From positions 62,001 through 126,000 of the forward strand of contig NZ_CAAHFB010000001.1 of assembly GCF_900880625.1 (NCBI RefSeq): a stretch of DNA of 64,000 nt, given 5' to 3'. The position numbers and the translations under genes are program-made. The DNA comes from Halorhabdus rudnickae. Lineage in GTDB: Archaea > Halobacteriota > Halobacteria > Halobacteriales > Haloarculaceae. Each line of letters begins with the position of its first letter. Position 1 is the stretch's first letter. Positions 6,568-60,210 of the stretch are shown in pieces. Below the pieces are notes generated by a model. It searched no databases and was not told the origin of the DNA. It saw only the letters and a program-made list of their open reading frames with translations.

Positions 6568-8814
6568 CTACTCGACGGTCGTCGGTTCGGCAACCGAGAC
6601 AGTCGCTTCGCCGAGAACGTCACGGGACGACTGACCGACGAAGATCGTGTACTCGCCAGCCGGCACTGTCCAGGTACCGCCGTCCTCGTCGTAGTACGCG
6701 AAGGATTGCGGTTCGATCCCCAAGTTGACGGTCGTCTCTTCGCCCGCTTCCAGGGCGACGGGCTCGAAGGCCGCCAACTCTCTGGGCGGCCGCGGCGCCG
6801 TCGAGTCCTCGGGACCGAGATACACCTGCACGACGTCTCGACCCTCGCGATCGCCGACGTTCTCGACGGTCACTTCCACGGTCGCTTCGGGGCCGTCCCC
6901 GGACTCGACGGCCACGTCAGTGTACTCGAAGTCGGTGTAACTGCGGCCGTGACCGAAGGGGAACTCCGGTTCGACGTTCTCAGCGTCGAAGTGTCGGTAC
7001 CCGACGAAGACGCCCTCGTCGTACTCGGCTTCGAGCCCGACGCCGGGATACTGTTTCTCGGTCGCCGCGGGATAGTCGTCGATCCGCCGGCCGAACGTGA
7101 CCGGCAGGCGACCGCCCGGATCGACGTCGCCGAACAGTACCGATGCCGTGATGTGGCCGTCCTCCTGGCCGGGATACCACGTCTCGACGATCGCTTCGAC
7201 GTCGCCGGCCCAGGGCATCCGGATCGGCCCCCCGGTGTTGCAGACGACGACTGTCCGGTCGGCGGCGTCGGCGACCCGAGCGACGAGTTCGTCCTGGTCG
7301 TCGGGGAGCCACAGCGAGCGATCCTCGCTCTCGGTTGCGTTGTCCTGAACGACCACGACCGCCACGTCGGCCCGTCGGGCCGCAGCCACGGCGTTCCCGA
7401 TCTCGGGATCTTCGCCGTCGTCGTTCAGGCCCGGTGCGTCGGACGCGGACACGCCGAGGTCCAGAATACCGCCCTCGTCGTGGGGATCCTCGATGCGCTC
7501 GACGCCGCGGGCAAACTCGATTGTCGTCCCACCGTCGACGCGTTCCTGGATGCCCGAGAGCGGACTGATCGACGCTGCGGGGGTGACCTCGGAACTCCCG
7601 CCGCCGCCGATCTTGGCCGCATCGGCGTTCGGGCCAATTACCGCGATCGAGTCGAGATCTTCAGACAGCGGCAGGGTCGCCTCCTCATTCCGGAGGAGGA
7701 CCGTCCCGCGCTCGGCGACGCGCCGTGCGAGATCGTGATGTTCCGGCGCATCGAGCGCTCCGTCGGGTTGTTCGTCGTCGAGGATACCGAATCGTTCCAT
7801 CTGTCCGAAGACACGACGGACCTTCTCGTCGATCGTCGTCTCCGGGACTTTGCCGCGTTCGACTGCCTCACGGAGGTCATCGCCGAAGACACTCTCCTCG
7901 AAGAGGTTCGGGTTGGTACCCTCGGGGAGCCACGGACTGGCGGCCAGTTTCGCGAGCGACCCCTTGGGGACGCTGTCGGGAAGTGCCCCGATCAGATCGT
8001 GTACGGCACTCTCGGCAGCGTGCCACTCGTGGAGGGGCACCCCTGGCATGTCCACATCCAGTCCGGCGTTGGCGGCCGCGACCCCGTCGGTCGTTGCCCA
8101 CCAGTCGCTGACGACGTACCCGTCGAAGCCCCACTCCTCTTTGAGTACGTCCCCCAACAGCCACTCGTGCTCGGTCGCATAGGTTCCGTTGATCCGGTTG
8201 TAAGCGGCCATGACCGAACCCACGTCGGCCTCCTCGACGGCCGCCTCGAAGGCTGGCAGGTAGATCTCGCGCAGGGCGCGTTCGCTCACCTCCGCGCTGA
8301 CCGCGTGGCGGTCCCGCTCTTGGTTGTTGGCGACGTAGTGTTTCGCGGTCGCGATCGCGCCCGCGTCCTGAACTCCTTCGACTGTCTCGACTGCCAGGCG
8401 ACTCGATAAATGGGGGTCCTCGCTGTAGTACTCGAACGTCCGCCCGCACTGGGGGACGCGAACGATGTTGAATCCCGGCGCCAGCAATACGTCGTGGCCG
8501 GCCCCCAGCACTTCGCGTCCGAGCGCTTCACCCTGTTCGTAGGCGAGGTCGGTGTCCCACGCCGAGGCCAGCGCGATCGAGGCCGGAAATGCGGTCGCCG
8601 TCACGTCCCGGACGCCCATCGGCCCGTCGACCATCGACAGCGATGGAATCCCGAGACGCTCGACTGACGGGACGTACCCGGTCGCCAGTCCGTCCGGATC
8701 GATCCCGCCGTGGATCAGGTCGATCTTCTCTTCGAGCGTGAGCCGGTCGATCAGTGACTCGATTCGCTCGCTCGTCGGTACGGCCGCGTCCGTTGGCGTA
8801 TCTGGATCTGTCAT
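6568..8814 (-). CDS. Glycoside hydrolase family 3 beta-glucosidase
   Basis: A 748-residue GH3 enzyme expected to release terminal beta-linked glucose (or xylose) from oligosaccharides. The start [16 protein letters not shown] precedes the (beta/alpha)8 domain. The nucleophile aspartate is in [11 protein letters not shown] and the acid/base glutamate in [14 protein letters not shown] in the second domain. The C-terminal fibronectin-III-like domain begins near [14 protein letters not shown]. No signal peptide, Tat motif or lipobox is visible, so it probably works in the cytoplasm on imported oligosaccharides. It is monocistronic and has a near-palindrome about 90 bp upstream. Beta-xylosidase activity cannot be excluded from sequence alone. 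Confidence 0.93.
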
Positions 8815-8898
8815 GGATAATTCTTGAGGCGGGCGGCTACTGGACTGTTGGACCAGGGCCTGTCTCCCGTCGGGCTCTCTTGACCAGTACGACGGCAC

Positions 8899-8913
8899 AG
8901 TACTAGTAACTGC
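8899..8913. promoter_or_regulatory. Near-palindrome upstream of the GH3 gene
   Basis: CAGTACTAGTAACTG, centred on ACTAGT, is nearly its own reverse complement and lies 85-99 bp upstream of the GH3 start. It could be an operator or a chance palindrome; no regulator is encoded nearby. Confidence 0.25.
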
Positions 8914-9027
8914 TGAAATTGTTCATCTCCCGTTTGGCTCGCTGGCCGACACTCGCTGACGAGTGTGTTTCTCCCGGAGAACGCCCGGATGAGACAGTGA
9001 CCAGACTCTTCACAAATAGGGCTCTCT

Positions 9028-9072
9028 GGGAGCGGATCTTGCGTCCGCTACCATTTCCAGGCTTAGCTACTC
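9028..9072 (-). pseudogene. Degenerate 5' half of a tRNA-Leu
   Basis: Read on the minus strand, this 45-bp stretch matches the 5' half of the intact tRNA-Leu (positions 9199-9243) at about 39 of 45 positions, covering D-arm and anticodon arm. The loop reads CGCAAGA instead of CTCAAGA, so the invariant U33 is lost, and acceptor, variable arm and T-arm are diverged or absent. It lies about 90 bp downstream of the intact gene in the direction of transcription. Between them, positions 9096-9104 repeat nine bases of the tRNA 3' end. It looks like the relic of a duplicated tRNA or of a recombination event. Confidence 0.75.
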
Positions 9073-9163
9073 GGATGTGTTCTCAGAGAAGTTTTTGCGA
9101 GGGAAGATGCCCCCAGAGGGAGAATCTTCCTGCACTGTTTGGGTGGCCGCATGGGCCCAGCAG

Positions 9164-9247
9164 TGCGAGGGATGCGATTTGAACGCATGGACCCCTACGG
9201 GAGCGGATCTTGAGTCCGCCGCCGTTTCCAGGCTTGGCTACCCTCGC
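9164..9247 (-). tRNA. tRNA-Leu (anticodon CAA)
   Basis: An 84-nt class II tRNA. The acceptor GCGAGGG pairs with CCCTCGC, discriminator A, and no CCA is encoded. The anticodon stem GCGGA/TCCGC holds loop CTCAAGA, giving CAA, which reads UUG. A long variable arm follows and the T-arm carries GTTCAAATC. No intron is seen. A decayed partial copy lies downstream. Confidence 0.95.
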
Positions 9248-9370
9248 ACGCAGTAGGTAGCACTCGGTTCGTGGGGTTAAATCACCCGATTTCAGTCCAG
9301 TTCGGACGGACGAGTACTCCGATTTCCCCGGGCGCTGGACTTACCCGTCAGCCGGCCGTTTTTCACGCTA

Positions 9371-9856
9371 ATGGATCGTCACACCCGTGATCCGTCGGTC
9401 TCACCACCGCAAGCGGGATCGCCGACCGGCTGGCACTCGACCGAAAACGAGTGGGAACACGCCACGCTCCGGCGCGCGGTCGTCCATGGCGTTGCGCTGT
9501 ACAACGACGGCGCGTTCCACGATTCCCACGATTGTTTCGAAGACGAGTGGTACAACTACGGCAGCGGGTCGACCGAGAGTGCCTTTCTCCACGGGATGGT
9601 CCAAGTCGCGGCGGGCGCGTACAAACACTACGACTTCGAGAACGACGATGGCATGCGGAGTCTCTTCGAGACGGCGTTGCAGTACCTTCGGGACGTACCC
9701 CACGATTACTACGGCGTCGACGTCCTCGACGTTCGGACCGTGGTCACGAACGCGACCGACGATCCCTCGGCACTCGACGACTGGAAGATTCGTCTCGACG
9801 AGGATCACCCGCGTGCGGACGAGTCGGATTACGCGTTTGCGGCCGGATTGGACTGA
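9371..9856 (+). CDS. DUF309 domain protein
   Basis: A 161-residue soluble protein. Residues about 35-90 ([17 protein letters not shown], then [15 protein letters not shown]) match the DUF309 pattern, a small all-helical domain with a conserved H-x2-x-E-x2-W core followed by an F-L-x-G-x-x-Q segment. The function of DUF309 is not established. The N-terminal 30 residues are a polar leader and the C-terminus is acidic. The gene is separated by 67 bp from the next gene on the same strand and may share a transcript with it. Confidence 0.8.
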
Positions 9857-26245: not shown

Positions 26246-26327
26246 GGTGGGGTGGCAGAGCGGCCCATTGCGCCGGTCTTGAAAACCGGTGGCGCAAGCC
26301 TCCTGGGTTCAAATCCCAGCCCCACCG
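26246..26327 (+). tRNA. tRNA-Ser (anticodon TGA)
   Basis: An 82-nt class II tRNA. The acceptor GGTGGGG pairs with CCCCACC, discriminator G, no CCA encoded. The anticodon arm CCGGT-CTTGAAA-ACCGG gives TGA, reading UCA and UCG. The variable arm GTGGCGCAAGCCTC precedes a T-arm with GTTCAAATC. No intron. A cassette duplicating its 3' end follows immediately. Confidence 0.95.
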
Positions 26328-26447
26328 CTTTGCTCCGAGCAATTCGCGAGGAGCAACGGGGACAACTGGCGATTTGAACTACGCGAGTCGCAGCGCGAAC
26401 GGAGTGAGCGACCGTCTCGCCATCGAGTTCAAATCCCAGCCCCACCG
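26307..26447 (+). repeat. tRNA-Ser tail cassette: direct, inverted, direct T-arm copies
   Basis: The last 21 bases of tRNA-Ser (26307-26327) recur exactly at 26427-26447, 120 bp downstream. Between them, 26371-26379 reads GATTTGAAC, the exact reverse complement of the T-arm GTTCAAATC. It is followed by ACGCGAGTCGCAGCG (26381-26395), which recurs in the tRNA-Glu cassette. The spacer before the inverted copy holds TGCTCC and GGAGCA as an inverted pair. The block ends GTCTCGCCATCG before the second direct copy, again as in Glu. No protein is believable here. Confidence 0.85.
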
Positions 26448-54069: not shown

Positions 54070-54189
54070 GCGGATTCGAACCGCCGTCGTTCCACACCGC
54101 TTCACTCCCTGCTTCGAATCCGCGAGGTGATTCGTCGCTCGCGTGTTTGCTCGCGACAGAATAGTCCCGGGCGGATTCGAACCGCCGTC
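54070..54189 (-). repeat. tRNA-Gln tail cassette: direct, inverted, direct T-arm copies
   Basis: Read in the tRNA direction, the T-arm block of tRNA-Gln (54189-54171, 19 bases) recurs exactly at 54088-54070, 101 bp downstream. Between them, 54123-54111 reads GCGGATTCGAAGC, whose GGATTCGAA is the reverse complement of the tRNA's TTCGAATCC. The downstream flank diverges from the acceptor. The spacer holds GTCGC and GCGAC as an inverted pair. The layout is that of the Ser and Glu cassettes, but the inverted motif follows this tRNA's own T-arm. Confidence 0.8.
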
Positions 54190-54234
54190 AGAGGCTCCAA
54201 AGGCCTCTATGATTGGCCACTACACCACGGGACT
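54162..54234 (-). tRNA. tRNA-Gln (anticodon TTG)
   Basis: A 73-nt tRNA. The acceptor AGTCCCG pairs with CGGGACT, discriminator A, no CCA encoded. The anticodon stem GAGGC/GCCTC with loop CTTTGGA gives TTG, reading CAA and CAG. The T-arm carries GGTTCGAATCC. No intron. Followed downstream by a T-arm cassette. Confidence 0.95.
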
Positions 54235-59958: not shown

Positions 59959-60033
59959 GCTCGGTTGGTGTAGTCCGGCCAATCATTTCGGCCTTTCGAG
60001 CCGATGACCTGGGTTCAAATCCCGGACCGAGCA
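59959..60033 (+). tRNA. tRNA-Glu (anticodon TTC)
   Basis: A 75-nt tRNA. The acceptor GCTCGGT pairs with ACCGAGC, discriminator A, no CCA encoded. The anticodon stem TCGGC/GCCGA with loop CTTTCGA gives TTC, reading GAA and GAG. The T-arm carries GTTCAAATC. No intron. A tandem tail array follows. Confidence 0.95.
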
Positions 60034-60210
60034 TTCTGCGACGAACGCACGTGAGTAGCGAATGCGAAAGGAGGGATTTGAATCACGCGAGTCGCAGCGT
60101 TCGAGTGACCGCAGGGAGCGAGGACATCCGTCTCGCCATCGGGTTCAAATCCCGGACCGAGCATTCTACGAGAAACGTACGTGAGCAGCGAAGCGAGAGA
60201 CGAGATTTGA
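60013..60210 (+). repeat. tRNA-Glu tail array: one full and one truncated cassette
   Basis: The last 21 bases of tRNA-Glu (60013-60033) recur exactly at 60143-60163, 130 bp downstream; with flanks the match is 27 bases (60011-60037 and 60141-60167). GATTTGAA at 60075 is the inverted T-arm, followed by ACGCGAGTCGCAGCG to 60099, as in the tRNA-Ser cassette, and CCGTCTCGCCATCG precedes the second direct copy in both. A second inverted GATTTGA at 60204-60210, 129 bp after the first, shows a second unit that breaks off at the stop of the tiny gene on the other strand. Confidence 0.85.

Follow-up and report, generated by a model that had tools for sequence, protein, structure and literature searches.

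A degenerate 5′ half and a hairpin trailer behind tRNA-Leu(CAA) in Halorhabdus rudnickae: the probable stump of an old tandem copy

Why is a complete tRNA-Leu(CAA) gene of the archaeon Halorhabdus rudnickae followed, at a distance of only 92 nt, by a damaged copy of its own 5′ half? The window, that is, the whole stretch of 64,000 nt that was analyzed (G000:C1:62001-126000, where G000 is the window's genome and G001-G006 are six Halorhabdus relatives), had been inspected earlier without database searches, and this sequence-only reading left two answers side by side: an old complete tRNA duplication or the att remnant of an integrated element. It is partly supported, in that the duplication finds support and the att remnant does not.

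The tRNA-Leu(CAA) locus and its 5′ half

The 92 nt between the gene and the half hold hairpins only, and the locus is composed as follows.

9163 to 9247, minus strand: intact tRNA-Leu(CAA) gene (ARAGORN), discriminator A at 9164
9132 to 9166, minus strand: hairpin H1, stem GCACTG/CAGTGC, starting with the last three bases of the tRNA, GCA (fold, relatives)
9102 to 9130, minus strand: hairpin H2, stem GGAAGAT/ATCTTCC (fold, paired changes in relatives)
9096 to 9103, minus strand: copy of the acceptor 3′ strand plus discriminator, CCCTCGCA, its first two bases doubling as the base of the H2 stem
9028 to 9070, minus strand: 5′-half copy of tRNA-Leu(CAA), tRNA positions 7-49, loop CGCAAGA (direct repeat, alignment)
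6568 to 8898, minus strand: GH3 glycosidase gene, the next gene downstream (Pfam)
9371 to 9856, plus strand: DUF309 gene, divergent, upstream of the tRNA (Pfam)

In the 3′ direction from the tRNA, the order is thus H1, H2, the octamer CCCTCGCA, the motif CTTCTC slightly further on, and then the half. The tRNA at 9163-9247 is called by ARAGORN and is missed by the Rfam tRNA model even at E values up to 5; across 8900-9300, the Rfam covariance models yielded zero matches at E up to 5, the genuine tRNA being missed along with everything else. By motif search, GH3 also lies downstream in G002 and G003 and is absent within 4.1 kb in G001, G004, G005, and G006. On the other side, tRNA-Leu(CAA) occurs within the fetched flank (up to 3 kb) at 60 of the 80 named DUF309 loci. 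The motif of the upstream neighbor was recovered at 8 of 83 loci, an uninformative count, since the upstream sequence available at about 60 of these loci was limited to some 100-350 nt.

The degenerate half is real, a 43-nt direct repeat (9028-9070 versus 9199-9241, 88%) on the same strand as the neighboring gene. The 38 of 43 bases that match in the alignment come close to the approximately 39 of 45 given in the sequence-only reading, and the anticodon-loop mutation noticed there holds as well, CTCAAGA having become CGCAAGA, that is, U33 changed to G. When each of the 43 G000 tRNAs was aligned, by its first 45 nt, to the 300 nt downstream of the same gene, Leu(CAA) scored 29 and the other 42 tRNAs at most 10; the half is therefore beyond chance and, as had been claimed, peculiar to tRNA-Leu among the loci of the window. 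Judged by its sequence, it cannot be a tRNA, because the acceptor strand and the T arm are missing and U33 is a G. Its fold alone does not stand out (z -1.6; 11 of 200 shuffles reach as low an energy), and the 3′ part of the second copy is entirely gone in the 1500 nt read from this species. Same-strand homology, loss of functional parts, and fuller copies in relatives mark it as a pseudogene of tandem duplication, and it is most likely functionless, a product of ordinary decay.

Tandem copies in Halorhabdus and the origin of the half

A region search of 97 genomes gave matches in 95, of which 12, mostly distant, were left out; the 84 loci read from the other 83 genomes came down to 83 CAA loci from 82 genomes (G031 twice; ARAGORN) once the TAA locus of G062 was dropped. 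A set of 126 Leu(CAA) loci, with identical rows merged and without the 20 of 80 named DUF309 loci that have no CAA tRNA, served for the counts that follow. In this set, 5′ copies scoring 17 or more occur at 24 loci in the 600 nt downstream of the gene and at no locus upstream of it, some 60 loci having only about 100-350 nt upstream.

In all seven Halorhabdus species, tRNA-Leu(CAA) is followed by at least one tRNA-like copy, which is either truncated or complete with an interruption and lies some 90 nt to 2.2 kb from the gene. In G001, the tRNA and the trailer (the H1-H2 pair) are followed by a longer 5′ copy (tRNA positions 2-55). In G002, a copy that has the acceptor strand, an altered T arm, and about 135 nt inserted in the variable arm precedes a second trailer, and in G003 (L071), about 1.2 kb with a DUF2971 gene leads to an interrupted copy with T arm and acceptor strand, again with a second trailer. 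The copy of G004 (L072) is followed by HicA and DUF7387 genes; the 5′ copy of G005 (L073) lies 2.2 kb off, past an open reading frame with PQQ repeats; and G006 (L074) has a copy, a second trailer, and then two more 5′ copies that flank RHH and ParE-like genes, the latter assigned at a score under the Pfam cut-off. The copies of G002, G003, and G006 thus include the T arm and acceptor strand, with the variable-arm insert interrupting them, and in the same three genomes the trailer is repeated after a copy. The anticodon stem is retained in most Halorhabdus copies, and the 5′ acceptor strand and D arm vary by species and are often lost. Single genes or pairs resembling toxin-antitoxin modules lie between the array units or just behind them in G003, G004, G005, and G006.

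The change of U33 to G recurs in the copies of G000, G001, G002, G003, G004, and G005 and in one of the three copies of G006, with one further loop change in G003 and G006; beyond Halorhabdus, it was seen in G024 and G048, which belong to other genera. Since each species has at least one copy with U33G, the copies are old, rather than the outcome of seven recent duplications, although in G006 one copy has a normal loop and another a loop different from U33G, so that not all copies need have one origin. The half in the window is best understood as a truncated old tandem copy, because fuller versions exist at the same locus in the relatives and have U33G in common. G002 and G003 differ in the order of the short and long forms of H2, one being the reverse of the other, an arrangement expected of unequal exchange.

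The sequence-only reading had held that an intact second tRNA-Leu at this locus in relatives would reduce the half to simple gene decay, and here the outcome is divided. In the six Halorhabdus relatives, there is no intact second tRNA-Leu, ARAGORN calling one tRNA per fetched locus of about 4.4 kb, and the full duplication is therefore only reconstructed from the interrupted copies. An uninterrupted second tRNA-Leu(CAA) was found among the fetched loci only in G031, from another genus, 2.07 kb off and with a changed discriminator. In G031 (L053, L128), the first tRNA-Leu(CAA) has an H2-type trailer and the second ends in CCCTCGCC, with no acceptor-strand copy within 500 nt downstream of the latter. 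Near-identical matches to tRNA-Leu also lie elsewhere in G025 and G051.

It appears likely, with a probability of roughly three in four, that the 5′ half is what is left of an old tandem copy of tRNA-Leu(CAA) and that the hairpin trailer, including the nine-base match to the tRNA 3′ end, is a separate, conserved feature. A plausible history would begin with a local tandem duplication of the tRNA together with its trailer, which would have founded the array; the array would then have acquired a hairpin insert in the variable arm; unequal recombination would have reshuffled and shortened it; and in the species of the window, the second copy would have been lost past position 49.

The hairpin trailer and copies of tRNA 3′ ends

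If the half itself is ordinary, the pattern of trailer and copies around it may not be, and it merits a specialist's look. The nine-base match to the tRNA 3′ end that had been placed between the gene and the half, TCCCTCGCA, is present at 9104-9096, but it does not belong to the duplication: it is the foot of H2 in a two-hairpin trailer present at most of the haloarchaeal Leu(CAA) loci examined. The joint fold of H1 and H2 has an energy of -33 kcal/mol (z -3.2); 200 shuffles averaged -22.9, and none was as low. The pattern of an intrinsic terminator is not seen by eye in H1-H2, where H2 is followed by CTCGCAAAAACTTCTC and no T run.

At 116 of the 126 Leu(CAA) loci, the octamer formed by the gene's acceptor strand and discriminator recurs without mismatch in the 500 nt downstream, and the copy follows the gene. 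Where the gene octamer is CCCCCGCA, all nine loci have CCCCCGCA copies and none CCCTCGCA; where it is CCCTCGCA, 107 of 116 loci have CCCTCGCA copies, two of them also CCCCCGCA; and the single locus with CCCTCGCC has no downstream copy. In the upstream stretches, about 60 of them short, CCCCCGCA turned up at one locus and CCCTCGCA at none. Among the ten loci lacking an exact octamer, which include the second G031 locus (G031b, discriminator C), G012, G041, and G053 keep the seven-base strand but end in a different base. Outside the set stand four loci whose acceptors differ (L188, L192, L193, and L213): Halogranum rubrum (L188) has CCCTTTGCA in the tRNA and in two downstream copies, and H. amylolyticum (L192) has only a degenerate downstream copy. 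In the 260 nt downstream at the two Halegenticoccus loci among the four, an acceptor copy is absent. On a poorly resolved DUF309 tree of 58 rows, in which 3 of the 9 CCCCCGCA loci are present, two changes are required for the CCCCCGCA type (3 rows), one of them forced by well-supported branches, and two for the other types; because so few changes are needed, the independent events of matched acceptor change seem to be few as well, maybe two or three.

An H2-type 3′ arm stands before the gene's own seven-base acceptor strand at 116 of the 126 loci, a set not identical to the 116 with the exact octamer. Of these 116 segments, 98 were short enough and 78 distinct, and the 5′ arm rule removed 4, leaving 74 in which the arms were placed by sequence, not by pairing. 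Over the seven pairs of the stem, these 74 segments show 92% standard pairs and 72 cells changed on both sides, against 79% and 21 on average, and 84% and 42 at most, over 1000 rounds in which whole 3′ arms were exchanged; the two-sided changes count sequences, not events, and related genomes share them, a relatedness that the exchange does not remove. A separate stem search was set aside, since a random-position control nearly matched the real data. From the paired changes in H2 and from the way in which the copy tracks the acceptor sequence, we infer that selection acts on the trailer, probably because of a role in the precursor RNA.

Copies of tRNA 3′ ends are by no means confined to Leu(CAA). 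The observation that every tRNA locus of the window carries tRNA-derived debris downstream is borne out at all four, the other three having exact 3′-end copies.

26246 to 26447: tRNA-Ser(TGA) locus, exact 21-nt 3′-end copy at 26427-26447 (T arm and acceptor strand)
54070 to 54234: tRNA-Gln(TTG) locus, exact 19-nt 3′-end copy at 54070-54088 (T arm)
59959 to 60163: tRNA-Glu(TTC) locus, exact 23-nt 3′-end copy at 60141-60163 (T arm and acceptor strand)

At these three loci, 100-130 nt separate gene and copy, start to start, with hairpin-like sequence between them by eye. Across G000, the last 35 nt of the tRNA are copied within 300 nt downstream for 24 of 43 tRNAs at a score of 12 or more and for 18 of 43 at 19 or more, the best upstream score being 10. 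With predicted tRNAs masked and equal stretches of 300 nt on each side, 51 of 91 tRNA genes in three haloarchaea from different families have a downstream copy of their own 3′ end (19 of the 33 in G000, out of 43, with 300 nt on both sides; 14 of 29 in G059; 18 of 29 in G077), compared with 1 of 63 in two archaea known only to belong to the same phylum (G104, 0 of 32; G099, 1 of 31), where the samples for G059, G077, G104, and G099 are partial sets, namely the tRNAs in the 30 best-scoring Rfam loci of each. Upstream copies number 0 among the 154 tRNAs of these five genomes. Downstream 5′ copies (score 15 or more) are rare in the same genomes, with one each in G000, G059 (Phe), and G099 (Ile) and none in G077 and G104.

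Among the 126 Leu(CAA) loci, 43 have a longer copy comprising T loop, T stem, and acceptor. In 42 of these 43, spread over seven T-stem types, the T stem of the copy is that of the gene, where 11.7 would be expected if the two were independent, relatedness not being removed from this comparison, and a pattern search recovered the left arm expected to pair with the copied T arm in only 24 of the 43. By eye, a typical unit runs from the tRNA end through a T-rich hairpin start, GGATTTGAA, an inner hairpin, and GGTTCAAATCC plus acceptor, often followed by the trailer hairpin again. In integron attC cassette arrays, units with hairpins likewise follow one another behind a fixed site and in some cases include one or two genes. 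The tRNA units would seem to resemble them in this serial hairpin layout; their ends, unlike those of attC arrays, are tRNA sequence and differ between tRNAs. Unit interiors are common to different tRNA genes, such as Ser-GGA and Asp-GTC in G059 or Pro-TGG of G000 and Val-GAC of G077, and a comparison of interiors gave means of 20.4 for the same tRNA across genomes (20 pairs), 15.6 for different tRNAs within a genome (276), and 14.3 for different tRNAs across genomes (524 pairs), the differences among the three classes being small. Behind tRNA-Met of G000 (L035, C1:801764-801838), two units in series bring three 3′ ends within about 240 nt. The first hairpin after many G000 tRNAs, for example at 60034-60062 of the window, reads by eye as TTYTG-stem-GARCAA..CGYGAG-stem-CAAA and may be a family of its own.

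That about half of the tRNA genes in three haloarchaea have a copy of their own 3′ end demands explanation, as does the agreement of the Leu(CAA) copies with the gene across differing T stems and acceptors, and the candidates are a constant renewal of the copies, gene conversion acting on very short stretches, and a function in the tRNA precursor. It is possible, if on balance doubtful, that very small elements inserted repeatedly at tRNA 3′ ends and that the tRNA-end copies, with that at H2 among them, are the scars, each insertion having left a new copy of the end. The close match of the copies to their own tRNA, as in the T-stem agreement, would fit such a history, as would the interiors and trailers held in common by different tRNA genes such as the Ser-GGA and Asp-GTC pair. 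However, H2 has the same form across the families examined, and is therefore old, yet its copy tracks later acceptor changes, which one ancient scar would not do, and no recombinase or circular form came to light in a search short of genome-wide. A rather unlikely proposal, which we offer only tentatively, is that the short units trailing haloarchaeal tRNA genes form a family of their own, in which a trailer hairpin and an inner hairpin are combined with a copy of the host's own T arm and acceptor, the copies being continually regenerated or kept matched by selection; such units would spread between tRNAs, their ends adopting the host sequence, and would sometimes hold a gene, for example a toxin-antitoxin pair, the Leu(CAA) array being a worn instance. 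For haloarchaea, the copies bear on the annotation of tRNA fragments and also on the calling of integrated elements from partial tRNAs, because copies within 300 nt of the gene leave no room for an element.

Element remnants, RNA switches, and known partial tRNAs

The other half of the sequence-only reading, that the 5′ half is the att remnant of an element integrated at tRNA-Leu(CAA), is very unlikely to be right. Gene-bearing DNA does lie near the array units (DUF2971 in G003, the PQQ-repeat frame in G005, RHH and ParE-like genes in G006, HicA and DUF7387 in G004), and, in the accessible text of two reports, haloarchaeal elements leave partial tRNAs behind (PMC7921747, PMC3119063). The geometry, however, is wrong. 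A 3′-end att would leave a 3′ piece at the far end, and a 5′-half att of the pTN3 type, as the accessible part of a review describes it (PMC8371274), should by our reasoning put the half upstream of the rebuilt gene, whereas here a 5′ half sits downstream of a complete gene at a spacing of 92 nt; since this fits no known att geometry and no element lies between, the att remnant was rejected. None of the six insert proteins run against Pfam is an integrase, and no integrase or element gene adjoins the repeats, the two neighboring window proteins being GH3 and DUF309 by Pfam. IMG/VR held no stretch with TTCAAATCSCWTCCCTCGCA (exact pattern) and none with the pattern of the Leu T arm plus acceptor; the end of the T-arm unit occurred in two stretches of one sequence, at a locus without a tRNA, and a 15-letter pattern in 43 stretches, none of which passed a filter for tRNA-Leu-like sequence nearby.

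What has been reported of partial tRNAs in archaea, as far as the accessible texts go, differs from the Halorhabdus locus in instructive ways. Haloferax gibbonsii LR2-5 has 11 partial tRNAs, several adjoining a full gene (PMC7921747), but the short remark devoted to them there describes no hairpin trailer, no copies that track the gene sequence, and no 5′ half. Two partial tRNA genes of Haloquadratum have been linked to prophages (PMC3119063), and a review of tyrosine recombinases treats att positions within archaeal tRNA genes (PMC8371274). Like the Halorhabdus half, the att duplications of these two sources repeat part of a tRNA gene in direct orientation close to it; there, a kilobase-scale element separates the copies, which are mostly 3′ pieces (a 5′ half for the pTN3 type), whereas in Halorhabdus 92 nt of hairpins intervene and the piece is a downstream 5′ half. 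Archaeal tRNA gene fragments mistaken for genes, attributed to element integration or CRISPR activity, are likewise non-functional tRNA pieces in the genome, but short arrays behind a gene are not described for them in the accessible text (PMC9897764). A description of haloarchaeal units combining a hairpin with a tRNA end was not found in the literature searched, as far as its accessible passages go.

We also considered, and hold to be highly improbable, an RNA switch in which H1 covers the tRNA 3′ end while the downstream acceptor copy takes over the pairing with the 5′ acceptor strand. H1 does start with the terminal GCA of the tRNA; when the copy is paired, all three of these bases are paired downstream in 77 of 84 loci, and the computed energy prefers the alternative in 82 of 84. 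A first energy comparison, in which the native pairing was the better one in 1 of 70 loci, became meaningless once the trailers were shuffled: shuffled trailers favor the alternative equally (mean -6.4 against -5.96 kcal/mol observed), and the observed value falls below the shuffled mean in 37 of 84 loci, under a fold model without tRNA tertiary structure. Because shuffled trailers give the same preference, it reflects the model rather than the trailer, and the energetic switch between native and downstream acceptor was dropped.

Hardly credible, finally, is a functional tRNA-like RNA with an enlarged variable arm of which the half would be a part, for although the same kind of insert occurs in several genera (TCGTGAG...CTTCCGGTG, 9 of 126 loci by pattern) and the anticodon stem is mostly kept, the variable and often missing 5′ acceptor strand and D arm, the absence of the whole 3′ part from the window copy, and the half's unremarkable fold all speak against it. 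The tRNA-Phe units of G059 and G077 also contain the insert found in the Leu copies (CTCGGAAGAC...GTCTTCCGGTG); there, in two haloarchaeal families, a tRNA-Phe-like piece precedes this insert module.
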